Below are positions 4,495 to 57,523 of a stretch of DNA of 64,000 nt, piece after piece; position 1 is the first letter of the stretch, and each line of letters opens with the position of its first letter. Under the pieces are notes generated by a model. The model had not been told where the DNA came from, searched no databases, and worked only from the letters and a program-made list of their open reading frames with translations. This DNA comes from Polytrichum commune. Taxonomy: Eukaryota > Streptophyta > Polytrichopsida > Polytrichales > Polytrichaceae. The stretch covers positions 31,049,501-31,113,500 of the forward strand of contig OX485805.1 of the NCBI GenBank assembly GCA_950295325.1, read 5' to 3'. The position numbers and the translations under genes are program-made.

Positions 4495-5165
4495 AATCTG
4501 CACTGACAAGAATGCGCCTCACGCTTGAGGGCGCACTGAAATGCGCCTTCCGTAATTTGCACCTAGAGCTGCTCACACCTGCATCAATGGTGATTACAAT
4601 GAACAACTGATTCAAAAGAGGACATACAGACACATCTGAACCGAAAACACCTGAAAAATTGGACAGCATTGACAAGAATGCGCCTCACGCTTGAGGGCGC
4701 ACTGAAATGCGCCTTCCGTAATTTGTGCCTAGAGCTGCTCACACCTGCATCAATGGTGATTACAAATGAACAACTGATTCAAAAGAGGACATACAGACAC
4801 ATCTGAACCGAAAACACCTGAAAAATTGGGCAGCATTGACAAGAATGCGCCTCACGCTTGAGGGCGCACTGAAATACGCTTTCCGTAACTTGCGCCTAGA
4901 GCTGCTCACACCTACATCAATGATGATTACAATGAACAACTGATTCAAAAGAAGACATACAAACACATCTGAACCGAAAACACCTAAAAATTTGGGCAGC
5001 ATTGATAAGAATGCGCCTCACGCTTGAGGGCGCACTGAAATGCGCCTTCCGTAACTTGCGCCTAAAGCTGCTCACACCTGCATCAATGATGATTACAATG
5101 AACAACTGATTCAAAAGAGGACATACAGACACATCCGAACCAAAAACACCTAAAAAATTAGGATG
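4495..5165. repeat. 166-167 bp tandem repeat, four units
   Basis: The start of the unit, aatgcgcctcacgcttgagg, recurs at 4511, 4677, 4844 and 5010, so the period is 166, 167 and 166 bp. Each unit contains the same blocks in order: a GC-rich palindrome-like start, agctgctcacacct, gattacaatgaacaactg and catacagacacatc. Units differ by only a few substitutions. The period is close to a nucleosomal repeat and to many plant satellites, but four units is a short array. Reverse-strand frames give repeated peptides only because of the tandem structure; the period is not a multiple of three, so I do not call a protein. Confidence 0.9.
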
Positions 5166-20538: not shown

Positions 20539-20894
20539 TGCGAGGGTTTTAGGGATGGAAGTGATGGGAGGATGTCAGGTTATGTGGTTGGGCATCAATT
20601 CACTTGTGTGGTGGTTTAGTTTTTGGTTCTTCCTGTTTTGAGGAGGAAGTGAGGTGAGGAGAAGGGAGAAATGTTGATTTGAGTGCGTTGCTGTCGAAGA
20701 GTGAAGATTGCAGGAGAGTCGAGTGTAGTGAATTGACAAGTTTGCGGGGGTTTTGTTATTTTGTTTGGTTTCATCGAAGGTTGGTAGAGTTGGTGAATTG
20801 GTGTGTGTGTGTGTGTGTGTTCAAATTTGTTGTGCGTTTGGGGGTTTGGGGTCGTGGTAGGAACCCAACAACTTAGGTCTTTGGTACATGGATC

Positions 20895-21095
20895 ACTTTG
20901 AAAAGGAAATTTATAGACATAGCCTGAGCTTTGGAAAGGAGATTTATCGACATAGCCTGCATTTCTGGGAAGAATTTTCGTCGACATAGCCTGCGTTTTG
21001 GGAAGGAGGGTTGTGAAGAAGATCTGTCGACAGAGCCTGAGCTTTGAAAAGGAGATTTGACGACATAGCCTGCGGTTTTGGGAAGGAGAATTGTG
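20895..21095 (+). repeat. 33-37 bp minisatellite upstream of the 841-aa gene
   Basis: Five units of about 33-37 bp carry the core cgacatagcctgcgttttgg followed by a purine-rich gaaggagatt stretch, ending about 120 bp before the predicted start codon at 21213. The array probably lies in the 5' untranslated region or proximal promoter. Units differ by several substitutions. Confidence 0.8.
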
Positions 21096-21212
21096 GGGGA
21101 GAGAAAGAGGAGTTAAAGAATTAGGAATTGAGCATTCTGATTGTGTTGTTGTTACTGGAGGAGGATTGATTACAGTAAGTTGCGGCATTTGAGTCTCTCT
21201 CCAAATTGAGAG

Positions 21213-24200
21213 ATGATGATGATGTTGAAGGGGAAGAGAAGGATGGGCACTGTGGATGGTGAGGAGGCGGAGACCATCATAACCTCGGGCGTGGCAGCTC
21301 TGAGGTTGGATGTGCAGTTGAATACGAGCAATACTTTCAATGAGACAAGAAGGAGCATGATAGATCGAGAGGAGCGGGTGCAGACAGAGTTTGCAATCTG
21401 GGTGCAATCACATCCGGAGGCAGAGACTCAATTTGGAGGGCAACCATTCGGACCGCAATTCAACCATCCACCATCGCTTGTCTTCGGTGATGGACAGTCC
21501 GATGTCAAGGTGGGGTTGGGCGATTTGACATGGCTGATCGATTTGCCATCTTCCTACGGAGGGAAAGCACCAAAGAAATTCCGTAGAGTGAAACAAGCAC
21601 AGGTTAATCCACTGCTTGCCACAGAAACCAACCCAAGGTTAACCTCATTCCAAGTGCAGGTTGCAGGTCCTCGCAATGTGGATTTCACAAGTTTGAATGT
21701 CTCCCCATCACATCCACATGTGGAGCACATCTTGGTGGAATTGCTTGGAGTTGATGCCTCGACCAACCAAGCCCACCAATTGGAAGCCCCACTTGCAGAT
21801 TGCATGTGGGGAGTGGTTGGTGCGGATGACTTGCCCCAGTTGTTGGACTGCTTGCTTCTGTTTTCCAGGCATTTTCGCAAGCACGAGCTTGCAGTCCGTG
21901 ACTTGCAAGAAAGCTGGAGCTATGGCGAGCAGCGAGTTCATGTGGATCCTGACCAAAGGGTGTGGGATGAATATGTGGCTAGCACATTAACAGCAGCTGT
22001 GGTCATCCACAAACGTTACAATATGAGGGTTGCAAGAGGGGAGGAGATGGCCATGGCTGAAGAAGCCAGAGAATCGAATTTCCTGCTGCGTTTCATTCAT
22101 GGAGTGGAAACTGTAAGCGTGACATGTGATGTGGCGAGGCAGGCAGTTCTTGAAGCGGGGAAAGCTGTTGCATTCATGTTGTGTGAAATTTTCAAAGAGT
22201 ATGAGATGGTGGGCCAGCTCAGTGTGATGATGATGGATGTTGTCCACCTTGAAGACGAATGTGAGTCAAGCTGCTCCTCCCCCCGAGATTTTTCGCAGCA
22301 TGGAGATGATTCCGGGTTTGAGTTTGTGGAGTTCAAAGACAAGGAGGAGAGTTCTTCTGATGATTGGGAGGTTCTTGAAATGCGAGATGGTGTTCTAGAC
22401 ATCGCCAAGCTTAATCTGGAGGATGAGATCAATTCATCATCACAAGTGGAGTCCAACGAAGTTCATTCTCAGATACATGTACCTGTGGCTGAATTAAGCC
22501 AAGAAGGCAGAGAGAATTCAAAGGTAAGACTCTTGATATTCTTGAATGCTGAAACCTGGAAGAATTGGAAGCATGTTATCAAGAATTGTACATTTATGAT
22601 GTAGGAAAGGCAGCTACTTCGTCAATCTTGAATTGCTTGTTAATGTGAAGTCAATAGTTGCACTTGTGGTAATTCAGAGGTAAGACTCTTGGTATTTCCC
22701 TGCGCAGAAACCTGGAAGAATGGGAAGTATGTCATCGAGAATTGTCTGTTTATGATGTAGGCACGGCAGCTGCTTCAGTAATCTTGACTTGCATTTTAAT
22801 GTGAAATCAGTGCTTACACTTGTAGGCATTGGTGTGCTTTGAAACAGGAGGCAGGGGAGTCGACGAAGATCAACTCAGCAACTGGGCTGCTACAATCTGT
22901 TGAATCTTCAGAGCCAGAACTCTACCGTTGGTGGGGACACTTGGACTGGGGCCTCCTACAAAAGGCGATCCACAGTGGTGACGTGTTACAATGGTGTTCT
23001 GTAACACTGCGACAAGTGAAGGAGAGTGGGTAAGTAGCTCTACTATGACACGCATCAAGTTTGAAAAGCTGTGTATTTTTTAAATTCTCAATCCCTTCAT
23101 CTCAATGCTGACTCCTAAACCCTTTTCGTAATTTTCCACCTGACAATGATGCCTTCAAGTTGCAATGAATTTCTAATTCTGCATGGCACGAATGATGTGA
23201 TGTGAAAATGTTCGATTAGTTTCTTTCATTCTGCAGGATTTTCTCAGTTTCTGAATCCCTTGAATACCAACCCTACTTTTCCACCTGACATTGATATTTT
23301 CCAGTTGTAACAGGTTTCTAATTCTGCATGGCATGAGTGATGTGATGGGGGACTAGTTTGATGAATCTCTCTCATTCTGCATGAATTTCCTCATTTTCTG
23401 AATCCCTAAGCCCTAACCTGCTTTTCCACTTGACAATGATACCTTCTAATTGCAATGACTTTCTAATTCTGCATGGGACGAGCGATGTGATGGAATGTAT
23501 TTGAGGAATTTCTCTCATTCTACATGACTTCCTCATTTTCTGGATCCCCAAACCCTAATCCTGCTTTTTCACTTGGCAATGATACCTTCCGGTTGCAACC
23601 AGTTTACTAATTCTGCATGGCACAAGTGATGTGATGTGAAACTATCTAATGAATTTCTCTCATTCTGAATCCCTGAGCCCTCAGCCTACTCTTCCACTTG
23701 ACAAAGATGCCTCCCAGTTGCAATGTGATTTTGCATGGCATGAGCAATGGGATGCAATGTTTTGCAAAACTAATCAATAAATTAACTCCAGATTTACTTT
23801 GTGGGGGTGTTGGAACAGGTGCTGTGTTGTGTGCACACTTGAAGTGGGCGAGTTCATTGAAAATGATGAGTCGGCATGTTTGATAGGGCTCCTCCCTCAC
23901 ACACCCCTGCACATTGAGATTCACCTCAACACAGAGTCCAAATTTCCCCTGGTGCGTGGAGTGACGGCGTTTCAGGAGGTTCTGGGTGCGGTGCAACCAC
24001 CTGTCCCTGTGAAATTTGGTCTCAGATGCTACATACCTCATCTTGTGAACCACTACTTTGCAAACAACATCCAAAGAAGTACTTCAAGAAGATGGCCAGC
24101 ATGCCCACATGAGGATTTCGTAGGCCTTATGAAGCACTTGGTTGCATGCTTGTCTCAACTCCGCACCATTTGCTGCAGCTGTTTAAGATCGTTAAACCAA

Positions 24201-24851: not shown

Positions 24852-25430
24852 AGTGGGATACTCACCTTGAGCTCAACAATGCCGTGACTCTTTACAAATG
24901 ATGAACGATCCTCCTGTATGTATAGGTTTGAAAATATTGTCCCTTTCTTCATAGTAATGAGCGATTTGTATATACTGTAAAAGGGCAGGTGGACAGTGAA
25001 GAAACTTCCGTCCACACTGAAATCCCACAATAGGATTTTGCTGATAAATAATAAGGTCCGAGAGAGTTCTTGCGAGAGAGATGCACATGCAGGTGAGGTA
25101 AGGGCTGATTAAAGACCAATTTTTTCCAGAAATTTCAGCTTCATATTGTAATTTTGAAATGCTCAAGATCATGCTCAGATGACACACATTCGTCCATATT
25201 CCATAATAGTGAGCAATTTGTTAAAAAGGGTTAATCTGGACTTATATAATGAAGTTGTGTTTCATGACTCATATTGAAGTGACTTTTGTACAACATAGTT
25301 TGAAAGATGCAGACAAATACAACCATGTATAGAAATGATCGCTCCAAGAACTAAATATAGCAGAGATTTGTAAGCTAGATTTTCTCACAAACTTGATTGC
25401 ATTTGCAACCTAATGCCAATTTTATTTCTT
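24852..25430. other. 3' flank of the 841-aa gene
   Basis: No gene is seen. The proximal part should hold the 3' untranslated region of the 841-aa gene. Weakly similar segments near 24950 and 25200 (sites containing catagtaatgagcgatttgt and aatagtgagcaatttgtt) hint at an old duplication. Confidence 0.4.
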
Positions 25431-26230
25431 TAATTGGAGAGCCTCATCAGAAGAATAAATTATTAAAAGAGGAATTGTCTTTCTACGAAATGACTTAGCA
25501 TTATCAACAACTTTTAAAGAAAACAAAAAAAAAACAAAAAAATATTTTAGGTCTTCAAGGCCCCATTCGGGTTTAGTTGATGTTCAAGGGATAAAATGCC
25601 ACCGCATCCAAACTTTGTTAATTATGTTGCCATTTCCGCATGTCTTCATACAATGCTTCATCTTGTATCCAAGAGCTTGCAACTTTGCCAACACCTTTTG
25701 AGTGGCATCCATTTGTGCCATCTTCCTTGGCAAGGTGTTGGCAGATGTGCCCTTCAAAACAACTCCCCCTAGAAGTTGAACTTCATACCGATATTGTACA
25801 TAGTGATACTCGCCCCCTTTTGATATGTAGCCATTGGTACTGTCATTTTTGTTGATGATGATGACATTCATGTAGTATCCCTTTGCCATACATATTTCTC
25901 ACAGTTCAAAGACATAGTCCATGACCAACGTTTTTGGGGTTGCAATGGGCAACAACAAGGGCTTCATTACATCCCACACCACATTTGTATCAAACCTAGA
26001 ATACACCAAAATGGCGCTTGAGATGCTTTCCATAAAGTTGGCAAGTTGTTTTGGGGCTTTAAGCCCATCCATTCCGAATGCGATTTTGGAGGGGTCCAAT
26101 TCTTGGGGTGGCCCAACCTTCTCAAGGGATTTTGTGAAGGTTGTAGTATTGCAATGCAAGTTGTTTGACTCTTTGCAACGTAAATATGTGTGAATTATGC
26201 TTCACCATTATTTGTGCAAATCTTTTGTTG

Positions 26231-26269
26231 TTCACAGACATTGTTCACAGACATTGTTCACAGACATTG
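26231..26269. repeat. 13-bp tandem repeat, three units
   Basis: The unit ttcacagacattg occurs three times in a row, at 26231, 26244 and 26257, immediately before the inserted exon fragment. Its position at the junction suggests slippage during break repair. Confidence 0.9.
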
Positions 26270-26426
26270 AGTGACGGAGTTTCAGGAGGTTCTGGGTGCG
26301 GTGCAACCACCTGTCCCTGTGAAATTTGGTCTCAGATGCTACATACCTCATCTTGTGAACCACTACTTTGCAAACAACATCCAAAGAAGTACTTCAAGAA
26401 GATGGCCAGCATGCCCACATGAGGAT
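26269..26426 (+). pseudogene. 158-bp copy of exon 3 of the 841-aa gene
   Basis: This segment matches 23959-24116 over 158 bp with a single mismatch (gacggagttt here, gacggcgttt in the gene). The source is internal to exon 3, with no splice site or transposon end. The copy lies inside the DCL relic, in place of about 95 bp. The near identity shows the event is much younger than the relic around it. It can encode only a short out-of-context peptide. Confidence 0.95.
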
Positions 26427-26595
26427 CAAATGTTGTGATACAAGAAAATCTAGAATGCATCTCCAAGGAACTCATGGTGTTGGTAGCTATTAATCTCATC
26501 AATCTTCTTCACTACACAAGATGAATGTGTCACAACTTTCAACAACAAACCTTCATTATGAAACGTTTAGCCTACAATTTTCTCTAGATCTCGGA

Positions 26596-27480
26596 GAGGT
26601 TTCCCACTCACTAGACACAGAAATCCTCGCAAATTTCCAAGGCAGGTCTGCAAGAGTCCATTATTACAAGAAGCTGGGAATCCGGCTTGAATGACACATA
26701 GAGGAATTGCTGTTTGGATTTTTTGTCCTCAGTTTGCAAACGAATGTATACATATGTGGCAAGGAAGGTGTAGAAATCATGGAAGCAGAAGATGGGTTGA
26801 AAGGTGAAGGGGCTTAGAGTTTACCACTTGCTGGATACAGAAGCCTTGCAAATCTCCAAGACTAATCTGCAACAGTCCATTACTTACAAGAAGCTGGGAA
26901 ATCCAGCTTGAATGACACAGAGGAATTGCTGTTTGGAATTTTTTGTTCTCAATTTGCGAAAGATTGCATGCATATGTGACAAGGAAGGTGTAAAAGCCAT
27001 GGAAGCAGAAGATGAGATGAAAGGTGAAGGGGCTTAAAGTTTACCAGCCGCTGGACACAGAAGGCCTCGTAATTTTCCAAGATAAAACCCTGCAAGATTC
27101 CATTAATTACAAGAAGCTGGGAATCAAGCTTGAATCACATATAGAGGAATTACTGCTTGAGTTTTTTTATTCTCAGTTCACGAAAGAATGCATGCATATG
27201 TGATAAGGAGGGCGTAAAAGCCATGGGGAGCAGAAGATGGGATGAAAGATGAATGGGCTTAGGGTTTACCATTCGCTGGACACAGAAGTCCTTGCAGTTT
27301 TCCAAGACAAGTGTGCAAGAGTCCATTATCACAAGAAGCTAGGAATCCAACTTGAATGACACACAGAGGAATTACTGCTTGGATTTTTTATTCTCAGTTC
27401 GCGAAAGAATGCATGCATACGTGACAAGAAAGGCGTACAAGCCATGGAAGCAGAAGATGAGATGCGTCTTGCTCATCTCG
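26596..27480 (-). repeat. tandem copies of the 3' end of the membrane-protein gene
   Basis: A unit of 219-224 bp recurs four times; its gaggaattactgcttg motif falls at 26701, 26920, 27144 and 27366. The unit nearest the gene contains the real last 31 codons (27372-27465). In the other units the same stretch is frameshifted: for example 27150-27240 reads LLLPMAFTPSL instead of LIFCFHGLYAF. All units keep the sequence past the stop, so both coding end and 3' flank are copied. The array touches the DCL relic on its left. Confidence 0.9.
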
Positions 27481-27848
27481 GTGCCTAAACCGTAGACGCT
27501 GGCAGCAATCCAGGCAATGGTGGCCATGTGAAAGAGGCCGAAGCTGAAGGCCACCCCTCGAGCCAGCTCCCCCAGGACGACGTTGTCGTTATTGTTGTTG
27601 TTGTTGGTGGTGATGTTGTGGTGTCTTTCTTGGTGCAGAGGGATGTTTCGGAACAGCCAGAAGACGAGGAGGAGGGGTGCAAGGAGTACACTCTGCCCAC
27701 GAACGAACATCTGGGCCACGGGGTCCCGGGCTTCGGGAGCCAGAAGAGGAGGATGAAGCCAGCCGATCACGTCCACCAGCTGCAGAATTGCATTCGAGGT
27801 GTACGCCCAGTAGATGATTCTTGCCGAGGAACAATTCGTAGGTGCCAT
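27372..27848 (-). CDS. putative four-helix integral membrane protein, 158 aa
   Basis: I do not recognise the family. The single open frame predicts four hydrophobic helices at about residues 12-34, 50-67, 91-115 and 125-147. Between helices 2 and 3 lies a hydrophilic loop containing NNNNNNDN, encoded by a short (GTT)n tract on the plus strand. There is no obvious signal or transit peptide. The start at 27848 follows the gene's only in-frame ATG before the first helix. A location in an organelle or endomembrane is possible but not shown. The 3' end of the frame is the head of a tandem array of partial copies. Expression is not shown; the intact helices argue for a real gene. Confidence 0.65.
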   Translation of the reverse strand: MAPTNCSSARIIYWAYTSNAILQLVDVIGWLHPPLLAPEARDPVAQMFVRGQSVLLAPLLLVFWLFRNIPLHQERHHNITTNNNNNNDNVVLGELARGVAFSFGLFHMATIAWIAASVYGLGTEMSKTHLIFCFHGLYAFLVTYACILSRTENKKSKQ

Positions 27849-27859
27849 GACGAAACAAA

Positions 27860-28380
27860 AAACCTCGGAACTGTGACTCTGTTAATGGCTATGGCCACAG
27901 ATGTGTCAAAGCCCGTTGAATGGCGCTCTCTATCTAGAAAGAAGGGTCATGAAGCAGAGAATTAATAAAGAACAGGATACTTAAACAATGTGGAAGAGGA
28001 TGGAAAATTCAAAACCTCCCACGAAGTGACCAATGTAGCACACAACTTGTACGCATTGAGGAATGCCGCAAAGCATTAGGGAACTGCGTGCATAGGACGA
28101 TGTTTGACAAACTATAAAGAAACTCGGAACTGTCACTCCGTTTATGGCTATGGCCACAGAATTACTAAGCATGATCGATGAATGGCGGTTGGTATCTTAA
28201 AAACAAGGGTCATGAAGCAGAGAATTTGAGGACAGGAATACTCGAACAATGCGGAAGAGCATGGTAATTTCAAACCTGCCAGGAAGCGAACAATGCAGCA
28301 CACAACTTGTACGCGTTGAGGGAATGCCCAAAGGGTTAAGGGAACTAACTGCTTGCATAGGATGATGCCAAGCACATACA
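27860..28380. repeat. 255-bp tandem duplication upstream of the membrane-protein gene
   Basis: The segment from about 27862 (tcggaactgtgactctgtt, ggctatggccacagat) is repeated from about 28119 (tcggaactgtcactccgttt, ggctatggccacagaa). The two units also share agggtcatgaagcagagaat and cacacaacttgtacgc. The duplicated DNA covers the presumed promoter and 5' region of the minus-strand gene ending at 27848. Confidence 0.85.
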
Positions 28381-29320
28381 ATCGGCGGGTACAATGAAGA
28401 GATGTATCGAAGCAAGGCAAGCAAACCACACTACTAAGAAGTTTGGCAAGAAAATCAACAAGAAAGAAAATTTACGACAACGAGAAGAGAAGTGAGTGGC
28501 GATGGATTAGTTAAAAATGCAGCGACAAAACACAGCTAGTTTCAATGCTAACAACGGCAGAAGAAGGCCAAATCGATGGTAGGGTGGGAACAGCAGCACA
28601 GACACCCACCACAAGTAAGCGAAGGGGGACAAGAAATGAAAGCGCACGCAATCTCGGCCAACCTCCAATCAATGTCATGTCAGGTCATGTCAGAGACGTC
28701 CTTTTGCAACATACAGTTATAAGTATGGCATGTCAGCAGCAGTATGTGAGTGACAACTTACAGGGCTAACTTAAATTCCAAAAAGGACAAATGATCTACT
28801 TATTTCAATTGACAAGGGCCAACAACCAGCCGATGAATTAATAACTGTCTTCTCAGGAGTTTCAACATATTCAATGCAGGCTGATCTAAGTCTTTGTCAA
28901 CTCCACGAAAATCATCGCAACATACGTACTACAAAAATCTGGGACTGCTAAGTTCTAATTCGGTCCACATCGTTTACAAGAACATCGATCTTTAATGTCG
29001 TGTTGGGATGCTGAACTTCACTCCCATTTTATAAGTGAAATTTTTACAGGGTTAACCCAGCTCGTGGTTGATGCAAGGGTGGACATTGTCGGACACCGCA
29101 TGATAATAACTGTTTGTGGGTTCATAAGAAAATTGTTGTTGTCCTCCGATGAGTTAGAGCTACAACCGCAAATCGTGCACTGTTGTCGTCTTCGTCATTC
29201 TGAGTGCCGATGCTCCCGCTTCCATGGCCGCGACGCTCGATGTTATCATTCCCGTGACTGCAACTTTTATGTGCTTCACATGGCCCCTGCAATGATTCAA
29301 TCACGATTGTAGCATGAGCA
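28381..29320. other. gene-free stretch
   Basis: No recognisable gene, RNA gene or bounded repeat. Short frames exist on both strands without family resemblance. Confidence 0.4.
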
Positions 29321-30230
29321 TTGAAACTTACTCGTCATCATCAACTCCGAGAAGTTTTTGCGAAGTCCGTAATTTCAAAGCACAAGCTCATGTGCACCAT
29401 ACAAGGACGAGAGAAATCCACCACAAACTAGCCGAAGTTGTACAGTGATGCTTGCTCGCCGAGCATCATTTGAACGGTCGAAACATCATCAACAGAAAAC
29501 TAAACAATGATAATACTATTGAAACTTATGCGTTATCCGAGAAATTCTTGCAAAGTCCGTGGTATTCGAGGTCAACTATAAGCGTGACCATATACGGACG
29601 AAATTCATGAAAACGATGACCGCAGTGGTTTGACCGGTGGAATCATCAACTTCAAATTAAACCATGATATTATACCATCGAAAGTTATGCGTGACACTTC
29701 AACTCCAAGAAATTCTTGCAAAGACCTCGGTGTTGAATTAGGACAAACATAAGCGTGTCAACCATATGTAGACGAAGTTCATCAAAAGGATAGGTTAATC
29801 GTGGGAAAGCCTTCCTCGCCAAGCACTTGAGCGGTGGAATCATCAACACCAAATTAAACCATGATATCACCGTTGAAACTTATGCAGCTTATCATCAACT
29901 CCGAGAAATTCTTGCAAAGTCGCGGCATTGAATTAGGACAAACATAAACGTGACCAAATACAGAAGGAATTCATTAACAGGATGAATGCAGTGGTGGGTG
30001 GGTCATTAAAGGTGAGAAGAAGACTGACTCGCCGAGCATTTCAGCGATGAAATCATCATCCACATCAAATTAAACTATGAAAACACCATTGAAGCCTATG
30101 CATCGTCAACTCCGAAAATTTCTTGCACAGTCCACGGTGAACATATACGGACGAAATTATTCGTTAAAGGATAAATGCAGTGATGGGTGAGTTTATGGTG
30201 AGAAGACTGACTCGCCGAGCATTTGAGCGG
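29320..30230 (-). repeat. tandem copies of the 3' end of the serine-rich-protein gene
   Basis: A unit of roughly 165-215 bp recurs about five times. Its landmark ctcgccgagcatttgagcgg occurs intact or diverged at 29455, near 29620, 29815, 30028 and 30211. The last is the true 3' end of the coding sequence (reverse complement encoding DDSTAQMLGESVF). All units also share aactccgagaaattcttgca and catatacggacgaa-type blocks from beyond the stop codon. Units are well diverged, so the array is old. Confidence 0.85.
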
Positions 30231-30822
30231 TGGAATCATCAACAGCATCCGGATGATCGGCCACATTTTCAGCATTTGTAGCAACCACGACGGTCCGCAG
30301 CCTACTGAGCCGAGTAGCTCCAGGCCGGGACATGGAAAGCGAACCCGGAGTTGGGGCATGAGGCATGGTGGCTTTGGGCCTCGCAGAACCATCAGGCAAT
30401 TGCAAGGCCGATGCGGAACTGGATGCATTGCAGGATGTTGTGGAGCTTTGTTGCAATTTCAACAATCGTCCGCCCCAATGCTTTTGGCTCACCCTGTGCA
30501 GACGGCACCTGAAGGACCCCGCATGCTTGGTGGGAGCACATAAGCAGGCTGTCCGCTCGGGGACCGTGATGATTTTCTTCGGGGTTAGGGTGGTGGACGA
30601 AATTGCATTGTCGGGGATGAATGCTCGTTTCCCCCTTGCTGTTCCTGCACCGGATGTGTCTGATGTGTTGGACGAGGAATTACTCGCTTGGTCGTTTGCA
30701 TTTGTGGAGTTGAGTGTCCTGGGCTTGAGCACGCCCTTGAGTAGTTTGGACGCATGCATCTTAGGAAAAACTCCTGATCCGCTACTCTGGTCTCTTTGAT
30801 TCTGTATCAGCATCATCATCAT
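30193..30822 (-). CDS. plant serine-rich protein with CLCxPTxHxGSFRC motif
   Basis: The 209-aa frame carries TACLCAPTKHAGSFRCRLHR at residues 91-110, the signature of a plant-specific small protein family usually annotated as 'serine-rich protein-like'. The biochemical role of that family is unknown to me. The motif's cysteines and histidines could bind metal; that is inference. Flanks are low-complexity: serine, threonine and asparagine from 39 to 58, serine-rich around 126-139, and a basic patch after the motif. The start at 30822 begins with four methionines from an (ATG)-like tract, so the true start may be a few codons later. The last coding stretch is the head of the downstream tandem array. 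Confidence 0.8.
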   Translation of the reverse strand: MMMMLIQNQRDQSSGSGVFPKMHASKLLKGVLKPRTLNSTNANDQASNSSSNTSDTSGAGTARGKRAFIPDNAISSTTLTPKKIITVPERTACLCAPTKHAGSFRCRLHRVSQKHWGGRLLKLQQSSTTSCNASSSASALQLPDGSARPKATMPHAPTPGSLSMSRPGATRLSRLRTVVVATNAENVADHPDAVDDSTAQMLGESVFSP

Positions 30823-31894
30823 CAGTACATGAGGAGATTGATCAGTCAGAATAATACAGATTCTATCAACAAGCCACTTGATGATTCAAGCAACTCCGTA
30901 CAGAATTAGCCGCAACTAATCTTTCTTTGGCCCAATGCAATGCCGCCCGCCTTTTACTAATCTGCTGCCAGCATGCGAATATGCGATGAGTTGCAGGCAT
31001 CTCCATTTTTCGAGATATGCAGAACACCTGTATATCTCTCTCTTAGCATCCTAATTCGAGGCATGGCAAATTGGTTTGTATATCCGAAATTTGTCGCTGC
31101 TGTTTCCAAAAGTGGGCGGTGAACCTTGTGTGCGATCATTTACACGAAGTGATGATGATTCCTTTCCGAAGTTTATTGTTCTCAACCACGGCTGTGATGA
31201 ACACAAACGCAAGTGGTTTTCAAAGAAGTAGAAATTTTCTTCAAAACCATGATGCATATCTTCCTGAATGGAAGTTGGCATGCCAATCAACCTCGAAGAC
31301 ATATTTCGAAAAGTGGTGGTTCTTAGAGGGAGGGAGGTTGAACCGCAAGCCCCCAAAATTCAAATCAATCACCATCACAGTCCAGAGTAATTATTCCTTC
31401 ATACAGATTCTTCGCTACATTTGGTGGTGATGGATAGGTAATTCCCATCATCAACACCCCTGCTGACATAACCTCGAGAGTCTAAGTGAGGAAGGAACTT
31501 GTAGGTTCTGTTACCGCATGGAGAGGATAAACATTCGGTCGCGTTCGAGCCATTGTTGTAATTCGTGCCAAGCCGCACCATCACCCAATTGTCTTACGAA
31601 GGCTAGCTGTGACATCATCACCAATACCAACAAATTGTGGCCAAGAATCTCAAATTACTCGACCAGATCACGTGATGACTCGCCAGTGCTTCTTCACATC
31701 CATGAAATATTACTGTAGGAAGTTAGGACGCTACGACACGAGATGATGATTCCGAATGTGGACCTCCGAAACTGTAGCATATACTCTAACACCACATAAA
31801 TGCATGCAATCTTCATCACGAGTATCCACATCCAATTCGTCACTCATTGACGACTCCAAGCAAAAAAATGTGATCAACGCCTGGAATGAATTGG

Positions 31895-31928
<34 letters not shown>

Positions 31929-33340
31929 AACCTAGGCTGAGAAATCGGTGCTTGGGTCGAAATCTAAGAACCCCACCAGCGGCAGTTAATGTCCAGATTA
32001 CTAAGCTCGGAGCCTCCAATGCTCCTTTTCCAACGTGGCTGGGGCTTGAACCTTTCATATGAGCAACATACATGATATATGCAGTCGGAACATCCAAGAA
32101 ATGTCTAACCATGACCAGACGAAATGCTCTAGAAATTTTGTGGCATGATCCATGATCCACGAAACGTCATGGATCACGAAAATAGTTGAACGAAAATAGG
32201 GGCGAGGATGTTGTAATAATATTGTGCAGGATGTGGGCTTACCGGAACCCCGCTCCCTCGCTCGCACAGCTTTTGGAAGCAAGAAACCGCCTAACCCTCC
32301 ACGAATGGCACCAATGGCATCTATCCCGAAGTAAAATTCTCAATGCAAATGGAAATGGGACAGGACAGGCCTTCCTTAAATACAGAAACCTCCTCTCTAA
32401 TTCGTAAACGTATGCAAGAAAACCTGCCCTCGATCTCAACTACAGAGAATACATCTTCTTAATGCCAAACTGGTGTTAACCTAAACTTTCTCGACAGCAG
32501 TTCCCCGAAGATTTATTCCTGACGAACACTATAAAGACTAGTTATCACTTCATATGAATCCTCCTAACACTTTGCCACAGTTACTTTGACCATTCCTCCA
32601 CTCACCTACCGATGCATCCAATCAAACCTAATCCACTCCTCCCATATTCTGATCCTATACCTTCAAGACAAGAAGGGCAGTACATGGTGATCAACCCCAA
32701 CAACATCACAAGCTAAATGAATTTTTCCAAAGATTTCCTGAAATGCACTCAGCCTGCAGATTTTATTTTATTTGAAAAAAGAAAAAAAGAAAAAAAGACT
32801 CCTCTACAGCAGACTACCTGAAGAATCCTAACCTCTCACAACATCATATTCCGTCATCAAACCATGTGCAAACACCACATATGAATCTATGAAACAAAAT
32901 GTCACCACTCTGCTATCTTCCAACCCAATTGCAACCATAACCTCACAACCTCACCCTCATTTCTCTTACCACGACCTGCTCCAAGACCTTCATGCATTCA
33001 GCGGAGTGAAATTGCTACAGAAGACGACTCTGCTCAGAAATCTCGGAGCAAAAATGGGAAGCAATCAGAGTGATGCATGAATAACATTATGGCACATGTG
33101 CCGATGATCACTCCGTTAGTGCGACGGTGAGAATTGATGACGTTGCTTCCCACAATGCCCATGAACATGCCCTTTCACAAATTCACCCCTTCACCCACCT
33201 TGCCTCTCTCAATGTCTCTCCTGTTTCCGGAGGGAAAGCTTGATTCTGATGTTGCTCTCTATGCATCCATCCATGCCATGCCTGGCCCGGCGGTTGAGAG
33301 TTGGTTAGTTAGTTGAGCCCTCTTAACCCTTTCCTAACCC
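30823..33340. other. gene-free stretch
   Basis: The first few hundred bases should contain the promoter and 5' region of the serine-rich-protein gene. No further gene is recognisable. A (CAT)n microsatellite lies at 31888-31928, a T/A-rich tract at 32760-32800, and several short frames have no family resemblance. Confidence 0.4.
31888..31928. repeat. (CAT)n trinucleotide microsatellite
   Basis: About thirteen CAT units. The methionine or aspartate runs in frames through it are artefacts. Confidence 0.95.
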
Positions 33341-33346
33341 TTGATT

Positions 33347-33831
33347 AGGTTACCAATGGAAATGAAATTGATTTGATTATAAAGTCTAGGAAGCCAAAAG
33401 GATTATGTACATCAAGATGGTGTCAATAAGGCTAATTCCCTAGAGTAACGGAGTGCAGTGGCTGCCCCAGTAAGATATAGGCTAATTTCAAGTTGATGAT
33501 CCAATTGGAAGAAAGACTTGAGGTTCCTTAGCACTACATCCTGAAATAGGGAAGGGAGCCTAACTTTATTGGGATTGTAGGAGGGGCACTCCAACACAAA
33601 GTGTGTCTCATTTTCAGTTGCATTTTCATAGTATAATTGGCATAATCTTTTATCTCTAGGAATTGGCACACTAGTCAACCACCAGCCAGTTTCAATGGCA
33701 AATCTATGATTTGAGATGCGGTAAGCAACGATGATTTTGTGTGAGGATGGTGTCAATGGTTGCTCTAAGTACGATACACATTCATAATTGCGAAATCCCT
33801 TGAGGTGAAGGTACTCTAATTTCATTTGCAT
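33347..33831 (-). pseudogene. LINE-like C-terminal fragment
   Basis: The minus-strand frame 33831-33412 (139 aa) contains RISNHRFAIETGWW, CQLYYENATENETHFVLECP and FQDVVLRNLKSFFQLDHQ. The C-x-x-x-x-E-x-x-HFVLECP block resembles the zinc-knuckle region after LINE reverse transcriptases. A related, more decayed copy lies at about 59221-59665. The family seems to be a multicopy repeat; no reverse transcriptase core is present. I read it as a truncated 3' piece of a non-LTR retrotransposon, with moderate confidence. Confidence 0.6.
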
Positions 33832-33897
33832 GAGGTGGAAAGAGTCAACTCTTTAGCAAGAAAGGCATGTTTGATAGCATCAAATGAGTGTAGAGGT

Positions 33898-34467
33898 CTC
33901 GGGGGGTGGACTCTTTGTTGGAAATCTAAATGATGTGCATTGGTGACTATGAGATAAACCCCCCTAACAAGAAATTTATAGAGAAATACAAATGTATGCA
34001 TAATAATAATAGGCTAGAAAATGGACTCAAGTAATTTAACTAAGATTTTCAGTTTAATGTTATAAATGCCTCAATTATATACACAAAATATAGAAATCAT
34101 GATATAATTATGCCTTTATTACATATACAATCCACTTTCACTTTCCAATGAGAAAGTCATTGAACATGTTTTCATTCATAAACTATAACTCATAATAATT
34201 TGACTCTAAGACACACATCATTTGGAGGAAATAAGGTGAATTGGATAAAACTAGCATACATATTGCCATTTTTTCTCTAAACCTTAGGATCCCATTCTTT
34301 ACATCTATCTAAACTTCAAAATTTTGAATAGCCTTTTAAAATGTACTACACACTAGAGAAATACAATACCTTTCCCATATGTATATTATGTACACTAATG
34401 ACTCAAATAATGCCCCTTTTTACACTCATGTTACTGCGTACATGGTATGAAGAGTCCACCCCCTAGG
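33898..34467 (+). mobile_element. hAT-type MITE, copy 1
   Basis: 570-bp element with inverted ends: left ctcggggggtggactctttg, reverse complement of right cctagggggtggactcttc. It is flanked by GTAGAGGT (33890-33897) and GTAGAGCT (34468-34475), an 8-bp target duplication with one mismatch. The interior is AT-rich, has no coding capacity, and is clearly related to 34775-35381. Confidence 0.85.
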
Positions 34468-34774
34468 GTAGAGCTTGCCTAAGTGAACGACACATGGCTA
34501 ATATAAACTTGCTAAAACCAACCACACATTATGTTGTCAATTCACAATTCTTGTGCACAGGAGGGTATCTTGTGCCAACACATGTACCCTAAAGTTTCAT
34601 CATTTTTGTCCCAATATATATCTATGATAATGGCATATGTACCACATTCACTACTCATAGTATGTTGAAATTTAGTTATGAAACTCATATATTAGCCAAT
34701 TAAAGATTGCCTAATTAACAATGATCCTCATTGCTATTGATCCTTATTCCACTTGTATGGATAGGACCTAAAAG

Positions 34775-35381
34775 CCAGGGGATGGACTCTTCATTGGAAA
34801 CCTAAATGAAGTGTGTGGGTGCCTATGAGATAAAACCCCCTATATATGCCAAATTTATAAAGAAATACAAATGTGTGTGTTTCAATAGTAGGCTAGAAAA
34901 TGGACTCAAGTATTTATACTGAACTTTTCAATTTAATGTGATCAATGCCTTCACTACATACACAAAACATAAATCATGATATAAATAAGTCTTCATGACG
35001 TATTACAATCCATTTTCACTTCCCAATGAGAAAGTTATTGAGCAGTTTTTCATTCATATAATATAACTCATTATAATCTGACCCTAAAACACACGCCATT
35101 TGGATGAAAATTGAAATATGGTTAAGTGGATAAGACTAGCACAAATATGGCCATTTTTTTCCTCTAAACTTAAAGGCCCCTTTTTTACATCTCCTTTTAC
35201 ATCAAAATTTCTTAATAGCCTTATTACATGTGCACACTAGAAAAAGAAAAGAAAAAAAGAAAAAATTAGAACAAGAACTCTCCAATATATATATACTATG
35301 TTTGCTAATGCCTTTAAAAAAATACCATTTTCTACATGCACATTAGTTCATATATGATATGAAGAGTTCACCCCCCAGGCC
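34775..35381 (+). mobile_element. hAT-type MITE, copy 2
   Basis: 607-bp element with ends ccaggggatggactcttc and, reverse-complemented, cctggggggtgaactcttc. A perfect 8-bp target duplication, CCTAAAAG, lies at 34767-34774 and 35382-35389. It is the same family and orientation as 33898-34467, sharing agaaatacaaatgt, aggctagaaaatggactcaa and further blocks. The perfect target duplication suggests it inserted later than copy 1. Confidence 0.92.
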
Positions 35382-35786
35382 TAAAAGATTACCATTGACC
35401 AACCTACATATCCGCCCATCTATCTACCAAGACCTCACAAGTGTTTTGTGCATGGGCCAAGATGAAAGGTTACTAAGAGACTTCGTCGTGAAGTTTAGAC
35501 ATGTGTCACACATGCAAGTAGTGGAAGGTTATTATGATAATTTATGAATATTAGACTTGAAATGAAACATACCAAGTACGTACTGAATTAAAATCTAGAA
35601 GTAGGTCTCAAATTTTAGTCCATAGTTACTAAGGTGATTATAAATGTCTATATGTGGATTACTAATTCCTTTAAGATGGGGTTGAGATATTCTTGATGAA
35701 ATCTAAGTGTCTAAGTTAATAATTTTAATTGACACAAGTTTTAATAGTGGGCAATAATTGCAAGCCAACTATGAACATGTATTCAT

Positions 35787-37400
35787 TTGACTCAAAATAT
35801 ACATGTATTAAGGATTTTGGAAGCACTAACACCATGCCGATGCCAACAATACTTCAATTTGGAGGCATTGGAGCTTTTTGGTGACTTGTTCTTGAAATAT
35901 GTTCTAAGTTGCATTTTGTTTTTGGAGCCAACTAAGCATAATGATGGAGCTCTCAATTATGAACGCACTTTAAGAAGTTCAAATACCGAACTATTTTGGC
36001 TAGCAAGAAGGAGAGGTATAGCTTCGTAAATTCAAGATTGCCAATTTGATGCAAAGGGTTGGGTTGCACCGGGCATGTTGGATAGAAAACAAATACAACA
36101 CAAAAGCATTTCCAATGAAACCCACGATGTTATAGAACTTAACCGATCAAATCTAGTTGATGTGTTTGGCAACTCCCATAGAAAACGCCGTCATTTGGAG
36201 TCAAACACTTTAGCTAATGTTTCAGAAGCTCTCATAGGTGCCTACCTCGTCAAAGATGGTCCAACAAAAGTGATGGAGTTCATGGCATGGGCATGAATTA
36301 TTGCTCTACAAAGTTTGATCCATTGCAAGTGAGTTCCACACGAGAATGCCAATGTCATATGCAAGGGGGCTTGTGATTACAGGGTGAATCTCCAGGATAT
36401 CGAGAATACCTTTTCGTAACATAACAAAGGTCTGTTGTTGGAAGTTGTGACTCATTCATCTTATTGATTGAACAAGAATGATGAAATTAACAACTACCAA
36501 CGCCTTGAGTTCCTAGGAGATGCAACCTTTAATTTTCTTGTATCGCAACATTTATTTGGGGCTCACCCCAAAATAACTCCAAGTTTACTTACAAAATTAA
36601 GCTAGGATTTGATGTCTATTAACAACTAAAGATTCACACAAGTAGTAGCACAATTTACACACATTTTTACGTTGCAACAAATTGAACAACTTGCATCACA
36701 ATATTACAACCTTCACAAAATCCCTTGAGAAGATTGGGCCACCCCAAGAATTGGACCCTTCCAAAATCGCATTTGGAATGGATGGGCTTAAAGCCCCAAA
36801 ACAACTCACCAACTTGATAAAAAGCATCGCAGGCGTTGTCTCGATAGATTTTAGGTTTGATACAAATGTGGTTTGGGATATAATGAAGCCTTTATTGTTG
36901 CCCATTGCCACCCCGTATATATTGGTCGTGCACCTTGTCTTTGAACTACAAGAATTATGTATGGTGAAGGGATATCATATGAATGTCATCAGCATCAACA
37001 AAAATGACAGTATCAATGGCAACATATCAAAAGAAGGTGAGCATCACTATGCACAATATCGATATGAAGTTCAACTTCCAGGGGGTATTGTTGTCAAGGA
37101 CACAACCACCAGTACCTTGCCAAGAGAGATGGCTCAAATGGATGCTGCTCAAGAGGTGTTGGCTAAGTTGCAAGCTTTAGGATACAAGACAAAACATTTT
37201 GTGAAAGAAATGCACAAGTGACAACTTAACCAATAAAGTGTGAAAGTTGAAGGTGGTGATACTTCATCCCTTAAACATCAACTAAACCCAGATGGGGCCT
37301 TCAAGACAAAAAAACGAAATGTTGTTGATAATTTCATGTTTAGTCATTTTGTAGAAAGACAATTTATCTTGTAATAATTTATTCTTCTGATGAAATAAAA
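35787..37400 (+). pseudogene. Dicer-like pseudogene, RNase IIIa to C-terminus (copy 2)
   Basis: Segments in order: RNase IIIa start (ILEALTPCRCQQYF, LEALELFGDLFLKY) at 35811-36026; WVAPGMLDRKQIQ and ANVSEALIGAYLV at 36060-36290; RNase IIIb (GLLLEVVTHSSY, NYQRLEFLGDATFNFL) at 36430-36560; then PPQELDPSKIAFGMDGLKAP through TLPREMAQMDAAQEVLAKL at 36740-37190. This is the catalytic tail of a plant Dicer-like enzyme, with helicase and PAZ parts absent. Stops occur near 36028 (a TAA where tyrosine is usual), 36294, 36419 and 36602. Homology runs on without introns, unlike ordinary plant DCL genes, so I infer a retrocopy. The acidic residues of LEFLGD survive, but the frame does not. The last 179-codon frame (36682-37221) is open and might be translated. 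Confidence 0.9.
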
Positions 37401-39390
37401 ATTGATATCAGGTGGAAAATACAATGAAGTTCATGAGAGAATCTAGCGCATCTATCAATATCTAATTGTAAGAGCCACCATTCCAATATATGGTTGTATT
37501 CTTTTGTGTCTTTCAGATTATGTTGTACATAAGTTGATTCTAAGCCATGGAACACAATTTCATCAAATAATAGCTTGCTAAGAATTGTTATCAACACACT
37601 TGATAAAAATTTGGGAGGCGAGGTCCAGACAAACACACACAAAGTATGGATACCTATCCATCCCCAAACATCGCAAGTTATCTACAAAGATGTAAGAGCT
37701 TGCAGGATTTTACAAGATTGCACAAGATTTCTACAAAATCCCGGAAACTTTACAACCGTCACAAATCTTGCAGAATAAAATGAGGCTCAAACCGCTAGAC
37801 AAGCATGTGTTGAATCGTCAGTGACTGTAAACTTTCAACCTCCAAAGTCGAACACCAAAAATACACAATTGTTCTAATTATCACAACCCTCTCGATGCTT
37901 GGTGGAAATACTGGACAGGGATCTGCACTTAAACCTTCAAATCTTACAACCTAACGATGACAGCATAATGATTAAATCTCAACAAGGTCACATACGCCTG
38001 AGTTCCGAGAACTGATCCACATGCCCGCCCAAGAGTTTTGCAAGGCATCCGTTGTTCCAAGTAGCATTAGCAGAAGTGCTCACTATAGCGCCATAGCAAG
38101 CGGAAAGAGAGAACAACATGCCTGAATGGAAGCTATTCTCTAAAAGTCGACCACTGTAAGATGATCAAAATTTGCATCTCTTGAAATATAATCACAGATT
38201 CAAGCCGCTTTGATCCTTGCGCTAGCGGTCTCGTGATTGAGAGGCGTGCTTGAAACGATGCAACTCAATTATTTCAAGACTGGAGCATTTCGCAGGTCCT
38301 CGACTACGTTAATAACAAGACCTTCTATGCTCTGACTCCTCTCCCGATTGTGGACAAATGTTGATTCACTTTGTCAAATGCCAGGATGACTTTGTCTTCT
38401 ACTTAACTGGCACCAGAGGTTCTCCAAAATGCTTTTCTACAAACTACCCTGAATCCATTCCTCGCGCCTCGCTCGTGCGGCAGGAGTAAGAGTTAGAAAG
38501 ATTTTGGATCTGTACATCATAGCTTCCAGACTGTCACAGCTGCAACGATAAACACTCTCCATAGCTGTATGAAGTGATATTTTTATACCAAATTTGGTGT
38601 ACCCCGACAAACTCAGACAGAGGGTTGCAAAGCTCGATCTCGAATTCATCAACACTCTCCCCAGATCCTCCCCCAGCTGCCTCCAAACTTATAAGCTTGG
38701 ATTGACTCCGTCATACAACAACGATACATGCGCTACACTGTCTACCACGCTCTCGGAATGGCTCGCTTGTGCAGTCACCGGATCAATGGTGATTTAAGAT
38801 TGAGTGTGGATCAATGCGCAATCACTCGCAAACCAAATCGGAAACTGCACAATATACTACAAAGAAGCAGTAACGCTGGAACCCGCATCAATGCGCAATC
38901 TCTTCCTTACGAAATCGAAACTCCACAGCACATTACAATTCATTACAACACATTGCAACTAATGGTGTCTCAGTTGGGCAGTGGGTGCGCGGTAGTTGAC
39001 GGTGGGTACGCGGTCATCTGGGCGATCAAGGGGGAGTGCGCAGTAATTGGCATGTCTACCCTATGTGCACCTTTGAACTGCTGAAGCAAAGCTGGTCCCA
39101 TTCTCATGTTGATCTGATTCATACTTGACCCTACACCTTGGACCACATGCTAATGTCGCTTAATCCATGTGTCGCCTGCGTGAGTGTGCAACAATTCCCA
39201 TGTGCGTCTGTGAATTGATTGAGCAAAGGTGCTCCCATAATATTCGGCTCGTTACTGGAGAGTAATTGACGCATTCATAATTTCCAAATACTCCACAAAC
39301 TCAAACCCTAAACCCTCGGTGAAGAGCTTGGTTGCATAAATTGTAGAGACGGTCCACGGCACTCTGCATGCATTGAGAGCAACATTTGCA
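37401..39390. other. gene-free stretch
   Basis: I see no gene or bounded repeat. The first part continues the 3' flank homology shared with the other DCL copy for a short distance. Confidence 0.4.
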
Positions 39391-40800
39391 AGGCTAAGGT
39401 CAATATGACAATCCTCGAACACTTGCACGCCGGGAAAAGCTTCAAAGATGACCATGACTTTGTAAATGGTGCAACTGCAGTTGCCTATCTATCTACACAG
39501 AACAAACACCGCAAGATTGATTGCTCTCACATCACAGGAGGACGGCACGGCATTGTACTTCTTTGTTTCCCAACTCAGCTGGCCAGTTTGCAGGCATCAA
39601 TGAAGAGGCAGTAAGTGAACCCCATCGTGAAATTGCTGACGAGGGCCATGGGGAAGGAAAAATCCAAGTCACCATCACAATCTTTACGCCCTTGCACGAT
39701 CAGGAAAGCTTCGAAGAGGTGGCCGGAATCGTGATGCTATGGATGGTGGACCTGTGGTTGCCTGTCCATCTCCACACACTGAAAGATGGGTTGTTCTTCC
39801 CATCACAGGAGGACGGCACGGCATTGTGTTGTTTTGTTTCTCGACTAAGCTGGCCAGTTTGAAGGCATCAATGAAGAGGCCGTAAGTGAACCCCATCTAG
39901 AAATTATTGACGAGGGCAACGGTTGCCCATCTATCCAGACACAACGAAAGATTGATTGTTCTTCCCTTCCCATCACAGGAGGACGTCATGGCATTGTACT
40001 TCTTTGTTCTCAACTGAGCTGGCCAGTTTGAGGCATCAATGAATATGCAGTACTTGAACCCCATGTTCAAATTGTTGACGAGGGCCATGGGGAGGTGAAT
40101 TTCCAAGTCATCATCACAATCCCCACGCAGTTGCACGCAGAGAGAAGCCTCAAAGATAGTGATGGCCATGGCCATGATGTTGTAAATGGACCACCTGCGG
40201 TTGCCTATCTATCTACATAGCGCACACACCGCAAGATTGATCGTGCTTCCCATCACAGGAAGACGGCCCGACATTGGGCAGTTTTGTTTCTCAACTCAGC
40301 TGACCAGTTTGAAGGCATCAATGAAGAGGTCGGAGGTATACCCCATCTTGAAACTGTTAACGAGGGCCATGGGGAAGGGAACCTCCAAATCACAATCACT
40401 ATCACAATCTTCACGCCCTTGCACGTCGAGAAAGCTTCAAAGATGGCCATGGCCATGGTGTTGTAAATGGTGCACCTGCAGTTGCCTATCTATATACAAA
40501 GCACACACGCCGCAAGGTCCTTCCATTACAGGAGGACGGCACGGCATTGTATTGTTTTGTTTCTAGGCTCGCCAGTCTGAAGGCATCGATGAAGAGGCCG
40601 TAGGTAAACCCCATGCTCAAATTGTTGACGACGGCCACGAGGATGGAAATCTTCAAATCACGATTACAATCTCCATACCCTTGCACACCAAGAAAACCTT
40701 CGAAGATGGCAATAGCCAGAAATCGTGATGTCGTAGACGGACGTACGAAAGATTGTTCTTCCCATCACAGGAGGACGGCACGGCATTGTTTTTAGTTTTC
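39390..40800 (-). repeat. tandem copies of the 3' end of the Ycf20-like gene
   Basis: Five partial copies lie downstream of the gene. The landmark ggcatcaatgaagag occurs at about 39595, 39866, 40033, 40316 and 40583, and the real one at 40826. Spacings are 271, 167, 283, 267 and 243 bp. Each copy contains the reverse complement of the last 25-30 codons; for example one near 40600 reads VVNNLSMGFTYGLFIDAFRLAS. Each also contains 3' flank with the shared block caggaggacggcacggcatt. Two copies keep the stop after the terminal serine, two read through it, and one is frameshifted. A sixth remnant lies near 39400. Confidence 0.92.
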
Positions 40801-40805
40801 TCTCC

Positions 40806-41396
40806 TCAGCTAGCCAGTTTGAAGGCATCAATGAAGAGACCGTAAGTGAACCCCATCTTGAAATTGTTGACAAGGGCAACGGGAAAGGAGATCTTGGTCC
40901 GAGTGCGGGTGTACCGGGTAATGTACTCCGTGAACAGCACGCACATGGCCGCGGCGATGACGTCGTTCACGCCCAGCGCTCCAAAAGAAAGCGAAATCGT
41001 CTGCGCAACGTAAAAGCCACCGAGAATTGCAATCCCGCCAAATAGCGCCCTGCGGAAGGGGCTCCGGAAGTATGCCCTCGCGATGCGTGGCAGACGGCGC
41101 ACCACGTCCACCAAACGCTTGTTGTTCTTGCTACTTGAACCTTCTCCTCCTCCCATGTCTTCCCCCATTCCCACTCCAGCCTGCGCAGCCCTAACCCCAA
41201 CCATCCGCATCCTCATCGCCTTCCCATTCCCATTTCCCTGCCCCATTGCTCCTGCTCTCAAACCCCACCCCTGGCTGCCACACCTCCATCCTCCTCCCCA
41301 TTCTAGATTCCTGCCTTTCGAAAATTGCATGCACACCATAGCCACCGGCATCGCCAGTATCGCCATCTTCCAAAAGAAACTGCACACCCTCCGCAA
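40806..41396 (-). CDS. Ycf20-like protein, plastid-targeted
   Basis: The 196-aa single-exon frame ends with RRLPRIARAYFRSP, ALFGGIAILGGFYVAQTISL and MGFTYGLFIDAFKLAS. This is the Ycf20 (DUF565) pattern known from cyanobacteria, algal plastid genomes and nuclear genes of land plants. Residues 1-100 are basic and glycine-rich and fit a chloroplast transit peptide plus linker. The conserved core is at 101-196, with hydrophobic segments at about 115-141 and 146-163 and near the end. An Arabidopsis member of the family affects non-photochemical quenching; the role here is inferred from that. The start at 41396 is the first ATG of the frame. The 3' end is followed by five partial tandem copies. It looks intact. 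Confidence 0.85.
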   Translation of the reverse strand: MRRVCSFFWKMAILAMPVAMVCMQFSKGRNLEWGGGWRCGSQGWGLRAGAMGQGNGNGKAMRMRMVGVRAAQAGVGMGEDMGGGEGSSSKNNKRLVDVVRRLPRIARAYFRSPFRRALFGGIAILGGFYVAQTISLSFGALGVNDVIAAAMCVLFTEYITRYTRTRTKISFPVALVNNFKMGFTYGLFIDAFKLAS

Positions 41397-56419: not shown

Positions 56420-56750
56420 ACCTCAAAAATCCCCCTCGCTACTGCACCAAAACGATGTGAGAGACCACGGCAGGAGTGGAGCGCGCGCGATGACAGCCAC
56501 AGTTTTCGGATGCGTGAGCGACGATGTGCGTGAGCATGCAACGAGGCCTTGAACACACTCTGGATGAGTGAGCTCCTGCAATGCTGTCTGTGCGTCTCCT
56601 CCTCCGACGTCGTCGATGTCGTCGTCTTCCCTTCTCTTTCCTTCCCCCCCACGTTCCCAAATTCAGGTCTCAGTTCCCATTCCAGGTCTCACGCTCCCAT
56701 TCTAGGTGCCGTCCAACTATCCCAGGTTCATTTTGGTGTTCAAAGAAATC
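56420..56750. promoter_or_regulatory. RPN1 5' untranslated region and promoter side
   Basis: The GC-rich sequence directly upstream of the RPN1 start should hold its 5' untranslated region and core promoter. I see no clear TATA box and no other gene; open frames on the other strand are low-complexity, serine- and valine-rich, and not supported. Confidence 0.4.
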
Positions 56751-56826
56751 CTCATAAGAGCACCCCCAACCATGACGCCACATCTCCCTCCAACACTACT
56801 GTAAAGGGACCACTATTTAATCCTCA

Positions 56827-57523
56827 TAAGAGCATCCCCAACCATGCCGCCACATCTCCCTCCAACAAATAATAACAACTTCGGTCTCCTTCGGAGACCG
56901 ATGTGAATTAAGTGTTTGTTCGATCTACCTTCAATCCCAAGCCCACATGACAGAGGTATGAAGGAGAAGATCTACTCCCCCCTTTTCCCTCCAACACTAC
57001 TGTAAAGGGACCACTATTTTAGAGGGAGGCGGAGCCATAACGATCACCACCACATCCCCCACATCTCCCTCTACATTGGTCAACATAGATTTTGACACCT
57101 CCAAATGCAGAGGGGGCTCTATGTAGTGTTCCCTATACCCCATCCAAACCCACTACTGTAGAGAGAGAGGCCCGCACATAACAATCACCACTGCATCCCA
57201 CCATATCTCCCTCTCCAATGGTGGATGTAGATTTTGACGCCTTCAAATGAAGAGGGAACTCTATGTATTCAAACCCATTTTAATGTTAGAAAGTGTTTTT
57301 TCCATAGCACTTCATATTTTATAATAGAATATAAATCATTACCTTATTGATGTTAGCATATGTCCATTATTGTTTTACATGTTTTAGGATTATAATATTA
57401 TGTACATAGTAGCAAATGATGTTGTAGCATGGTTTGACACACTCCACAAGCTCCTTTATCGTTGTTTTAGAGTGAGAACTTAGAAGTGGAGGAAGATGTG
57501 GTGACATGGTTGGAGATGCTCTA
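56827..57523. mobile_element. TIR element with agagcatccccaacc ends
   Basis: The left end agagcatccccaaccatgcc is repeated inverted at the right end (tggttggagatgctct, 57508-57523), and the inverted match extends to about 37 bp. An extra partial left end lies about 70 bp further left at 56757. Internal direct duplications share cactactgtaaagggaccac and agattttgacacctccaaat. There is no coding capacity. 'GAGCATCTCCAACC' ends are common in plant DNA transposons; the superfamily is not assigned. Confidence 0.65.
56881..56922. repeat. repeated hairpin motif, copy 1
   Basis: The sequence tcggtctccttcggagaccg is a near-perfect inverted repeat with a TTC loop, followed by gtgtttgttcg. Related copies in opposite orientation lie at about 59803-59852 (gaacaaacacttcattcacg then a gaccgaag arm) and 60429-60480 (aaacaaacactctactcact then ccagagaccag). 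The stem is kept by paired changes in copy 3, so the structure itself may matter, for instance as a transposon end. Confidence 0.65.

Follow-up and report, generated by a model that had tools for sequence, protein, structure and literature searches.

In a 64-kb stretch of the Polytrichum commune genome (contig OX485805.1, positions 31,049,501 to 31,113,500 of the forward strand; hereafter the window), three minus-strand genes, with stop codons at positions 27372, 30193 and 40806, each have a head-to-tail row of partial copies of their own 3′ end downstream. Arrays of one kind occur at many places in the genome, as judged from the loci sampled below, and are not tied to one gene family. We consider it probable that the three gene-end arrays are products of background local tandem duplication and a few rounds of expansion, with selection tolerating duplications that run outward from the end of a gene.

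The three gene-end arrays

Self-BLAST, Tandem Repeats Finder (TRF) and unit alignment bear out what a preliminary description of this DNA had claimed from the letters alone, namely that each of the three genes carries three to five extra partial copies of its own 3′ end; the extra copies number three, three and five, respectively. Each unit consists of the last 57–93 coding bases of its gene together with 3′ flank, and the gene-proximal ends of the arrays, designated B, C and D, lie 93, 57 and 90 bases inside the respective reading frames. Arrays B and D were detected by both TRF and self-BLAST, and array C by self-BLAST only. The arrays and their genes are as follows.

26599..27464, minus strand: array B, the gene end and three extra units of about 220 bp, four units in all (TRF, self-BLAST, unit alignment)
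27372..27848, minus strand: gene B, a single-exon frame of 158 amino acids with hydrophobic stretches recognised by eye (open reading frame, codon score 68.1)
29451..30249, minus strand: array C, the gene end and three clear extra units of about 165–215 bp, four units in all (self-BLAST, unit alignment)
30193..30885, minus strand: gene C, a terminal coding frame open to 30885 (open reading frame, codon score 31.1 over 30211-30741)
39399..40895, minus strand: array D, the gene end and five extra units of about 165–285 bp, six units in all (TRF, self-BLAST, unit alignment)
40806..41366, minus strand: gene D, a DUF565 (PF04483) protein of 186 amino acids (Pfam E = 9e-18, codon score 70.6)

Searches of Pfam and the PDB returned no family and no structural relative for gene B, and gene C has no Pfam match. 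The coding evidence for gene C is weaker than that for B and D because the opposite strand scores higher (41.0 over 30362-30739).

The pairwise spacings found by self-BLAST are 220 bp in array B, 160–410 bp in array C and from 165 bp upwards in array D. Aligned units are 80–88% identical in B, 74–79% in C and 71–84% in D; a possible fifth unit of array C, only about 58% alike, was not counted. As 20 order-3 Markov surrogates of the window yielded no tandem pair of at least 40 bases at the same E-value, a chance origin of the arrays is excluded. A genome search that skips very common words and scores the best candidates only returns, for the region of each array, a single place, its own; the units are thus local.

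Compared with its copies, the DUF565 gene shows differences of 0.15, 0.15 and 0.33 at codon positions 1, 2 and 3, respectively. They fall mainly at third positions, as would be expected had constraint acted on the gene but not on the copies.

Gene ends and arbitrary positions in the genome

To place the window in the context of the 408-Mb genome, which has seven large contigs, 64 gene ends from three families were compared with arbitrary positions. The P450 set comprised 50 of 98 listed places, made up of 30 returned loci and 20 selected manually among the remaining 68, some clusters being avoided; four of its loci (L009, L010, L015 and L024) carry in-frame stops inside the domain match and were kept in the counts. 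The set of light-harvesting complex (LHC) genes comprised 12 distinct ends out of 30 loci, 15 near-identical loci (L033-L047) and three judged not to be gene ends (L057-L059) having been dropped. Two HSP20 genes were chosen by hand from 26 places. The controls were 312 positions, evenly spaced on both strands and hence not independent of one another, in 12 arbitrary 4-kb stretches at hand-picked round coordinates. Coverage and array counts refer to the 30 returned P450 loci and the 12 LHC loci, with the 20 later P450 ends and the HSP20 genes left out.

The stop codon lies inside a tandem pair at four of the 50 P450 ends (L009, L025, L031 and L077), one of the 12 LHC ends (L048) and one of the two HSP20 ends (L095), that is at 6/64 ends, a count that includes L009, which is perhaps a damaged gene or one read across an intron, and L025, whose pair takes in only 9 coding bases. 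L031 and its paralogue L076 share an older pair that does not span the stop. The anatomy of L095 is like that of the window arrays, in that two further copies of its last 66 coding bases, each with about 60 bases of flank, lie downstream, giving three copies. The preliminary description had held that arrays of this sort are not a quirk of one family, and these six ends, drawn from three families other than those of the window genes, agree with it. It had further proposed a process that reiterates the 3′ ends of genes, to be recognised by comparing gene 3′ ends with random positions. Among the sampled loci this comparison gives no significant excess: 17 of the 312 control positions also lie inside a tandem pair (p = 0.14). 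Of that interpretation, the part that stands is that the cause is confined neither to the window nor to one gene family; the tie to 3′ ends finds no support.

The surroundings of the stop codon give a similar picture. In the kilobase after the stop, 9.4% of bases are covered by arrays (3966/42000; P450 1637/30000, LHC 2329/12000), so that stop codons lie in arrays about as often as do the bases of that kilobase. Upstream of the matched domain exon, coverage of the adjoining kilobase, which is often intron or further coding sequence, is 6.2% (2588/42000). Array DNA is present in the downstream kilobase of 10 of the 42 genes and in the upstream kilobase of 7 (p = 0.59). Coding bases are covered less than the kilobase beyond the stop (694/21930 in P450 and 68/5550 in LHC genes). 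A tandem pair occurs anywhere between −380 and +1120 of the stop at 9 of 50 P450 and 5 of 12 LHC ends, as compared with 61 of 312 control windows.

Arrays are common in every sample. There are 6 in the 48 kb of arbitrary stretches, 12 in 110 kb around the P450 loci and 8 in 40 kb around the LHC loci, which corresponds to one per 8.0, 9.1 and 5.1 kb, respectively, and the same measure finds 14 in the 64-kb window, arrays B, C and D included. Spacings over the 40 arrays run from 64 to 1173 bp with a median of 212.5 and a middle half of 142–297, in a search that short old duplications escape. The median best identity is 79%; most of the sampled arrays are old.

Other repeats of the window and of the sampled families

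Several of the other arrays in the window sit 5′ of genes. Five of the others are as follows.

27857..28367, minus strand: array of two copies (259 bp) immediately upstream of gene B, the mirror image of the 3′ case (TRF, self-BLAST)
20896..21092, plus strand: short array with spacings of 113 and 146 bp, just before the frame 21210-22604 (array survey)
22515..22823, plus strand: array of two copies (156 bp), overlapping the end of the frame 21210-22604 (self-BLAST, codon score)
56747..57267, minus strand: array with spacings of 72–201 bp, upstream of the coding-scored segment 56249-56419 (self-BLAST, codon score)
4500..5162, no strand assigned: array with four units of 166 bp that are about 94% identical (TRF, self-BLAST)

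The array upstream of gene B stops 9 bases short of that gene's start codon. That at 56747-57267 lies about 330 bases upstream of the putative start of an RPN1-like gene, whose Pfam match is to the frame 53075-53443 and of which we take the segment 56249-56419 to be the first exon. The frame 21210-22604 was considered as a fourth 3′-end case and dropped: the unit in the array 22515-22823 has, close to its start, a GGTAAG that is a possible splice donor, so that the frame may end at an exon-intron border and position 22604 was not counted as a 3′ end. No coding-scored segment overlaps the array 4500-5162.

Repeats of other kinds are also present in the window. Self-BLAST finds an inverse repeat consisting of a segment of about 1.0 kb and a nearby 130-bp piece, in which 25242-26560 is matched by 36420-37570, about 11 kb away, at 76–83% identity; the open frame 36649-37221 within it has no Pfam match. 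A 158-bp stretch (23959-24116) recurs 2.3 kb away at 26269-26426 with 99% identity, far closer than the neighbouring repeats. Two segments of 0.85 and 0.7 kb are directly duplicated about 5.2 kb apart (13266-15268 and 18463-20539) at 83–84% identity.

Several features of the sampled families were noted along the way. Fourteen chlorophyll a/b-binding genes (L032-L045) of equal domain score and with identical C-termini are packed into 95 kb (C5:1751760-1846160), and two more with the same C-terminus (L046, L047) lie at C7:40324947-40327742. At the P450 locus L089, an array of roughly eight copies of an approximately 64-bp unit begins 72 bases past the stop codon. A C-terminal P450 fragment of almost constant limits (profile position 324 to about 456), with an in-frame stop in each case, occurs at five places on four contigs (C5:20414323, C5:50872886, C7:32168517, C3:20504208 and C2:56399274), which suggests a dispersed gene fragment.

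Origin of the arrays

Four other explanations for the gene-end arrays were weighed against background duplication and selection. The one that comes closest is a process tied to transcription ends, in which R-loops, nicks or replication conflicts at terminators would raise the rate of tandem duplication at the 3′ ends of genes. Three such genes lie within 14 kb of the window, one of the two sampled HSP20 genes is positive, the 6/64 gene ends are numerically above the 17/312 controls, and coverage downstream of LHC genes reaches 19%. The excess over the controls is nevertheless not significant and the frequency at the stop codon is that of the following kilobase, array DNA is not significantly more frequent in the downstream than in the upstream kilobase, and arrays in the window also lie directly upstream of genes. 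We therefore hold such a process to be unlikely, and give the same low rating to a reading in which transcription ends in this genome would be mild hotspots where tandem duplication recurs, a sizeable minority of genes (3.5–19% by the sample) carrying decaying 3′-end arrays as a readable record of terminator breakage.

The extra copies could also have been retained as alternative terminal exons or polyadenylation sites, as the preliminary description had suggested. Five extra copies keep the gene's frame open throughout the coding segment, three of the five derived from the DUF565 gene (units 2, 3 and 6 of array D) and two of the three in array B (units 3 and 4). An open frame together with a stop at the gene's position is kept in only 2 of the 11 extra copies, however, both in array D. 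Differences between extra copies at codon positions 1, 2 and 3 amount to 0.16, 0.19 and 0.20 in D, 0.15, 0.26 and 0.11 in B, and 0.25, 0.46 and 0.18 in C, with no marked excess at third positions, although in segments so short a weak constraint would be missed. In array B, unit alignment shows changes to the AATAAA-like stretch in two of the three extra copies. The sequence thus lends no support to alternative terminal exons, and we regard retention for either function as very improbable. A transposable element that captured gene ends and left pieces of them behind is a still fainter prospect: the region does hold other duplicated pieces, such as 25242-26241, which is found inverted at 36612-37570, but no dispersed copies appeared in the genome search described above, where B, C and D had one match each. 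Equally slight is the probability of an assembly artefact, as the copies differ by about 12–29%, which is hardly read or assembly error, and the arrays lie within a 59-Mb contig.

Background duplication filtered by selection would account for the arrays as follows. The initial duplication would most likely arise as repair fills in and rejoins staggered single-strand breaks or resected double-strand breaks, and growth to four to six units would proceed, probably, by unequal exchange or through further breaks once two copies exist. Duplications within coding sequence, which tend to break frames, would mostly be purged by selection, and duplications over start codons would add upstream start codons. 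A duplication that runs from the last coding stretch outward should be tolerated because the first copy keeps the frame and the stop, leaving the gene end intact with the other copies outside it; these would then decay as non-coding DNA. The sample fits such a selective filter, with low coverage in the coding interior and a stop codon covered as often as the flank. We read the three window genes as the tail of a common process, though they stand above the sampled rate.

Plant tandem duplications have reportedly been attributed to patch-mediated repair of adjacent nicks by Vaughn and Bennetzen (2014) and Schiml (2016). Work on rice describes duplications formed by this repair, the share of tandem duplications falling to 5% by 200 bp (PMC7971508). 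The arrays in P. commune resemble those duplications in being local and head-to-tail, in involving no recognised transposon and in occurring in many parts of the genome. The LHC locus L036 adds a perfect 140-bp tandem pair, which suggests a recent event and whose junction shows no visible shared bases; no related flank that would represent its unduplicated relative is present among the sampled loci. Unlike the rice duplications, most arrays here are old, and several have three to six units. In mammalian cells, fill-in by CST-guided Pol α-primase at broken ends makes small tandem duplications (PMC8355091). The outcome there, in which local sequence is directly duplicated at a break, is alike, and a similar reaction may apply here. 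The arrays also recall minisatellites or young satellites in being multi-unit direct arrays able to grow by unequal exchange. Unlike satellites, with their many homogenised units, arrays B, C and D comprise only four to six units that are strongly diverged (71–88% alike) and not homogenised. Narrow search terms, applied to the titles and abstract openings of open-licence papers, returned no paper that treats gene 3′-end arrays as a class.

A number of observations weigh against background duplication and selection as a sufficient account. Multi-unit arrays lie over the stop in three of about five recognised genes of the window, for which p = 0.005 at a rate of 5/62, and p would be 0.0002 to 0.0004 if the doubtful frame ending at 22604 were a fourth; both values overstate the case because the window was singled out after the fact as striking. 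No clear array of at least three units lies over the stop at the 62 P450 and LHC ends, the HSP20 gene L095 being the only sampled example. Arrays are about 1.7 times as dense in the window as at the other loci (Fisher p = 0.14, Poisson p = 0.05), and the 19% of array DNA downstream of LHC genes compares with 5% in the arbitrary stretches. The interval around 6/64, from 3.5 to 19%, leaves room for a true 3′-end excess as large as about 3.5-fold. The differences between gene and copies form no clear pattern over codon positions 1, 2 and 3 in B (0.10, 0.15 and 0.16) or C (0.24, 0.32 and 0.22), which leaves the third-position signal to D only, and the coding-derived part of array D is slightly less diverged than its flank (0.18 versus 0.22), which is not so in B and C. 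Spacings are often above 200 bp (median 212.5) and so longer than those of the rice duplications (PMC7971508), in a search that tends to miss short old duplications.

The three arrays carry a caution, in that three striking neighbours are accounted for by background duplication and selection, as far as 64 gene ends tell. A gene-end array also sets one copy under constraint beside others that seem free of it, which makes duplication and decay readable gene by gene. Were a census to show an excess at transcript ends, terminators would be implicated as sites of breakage in plants.

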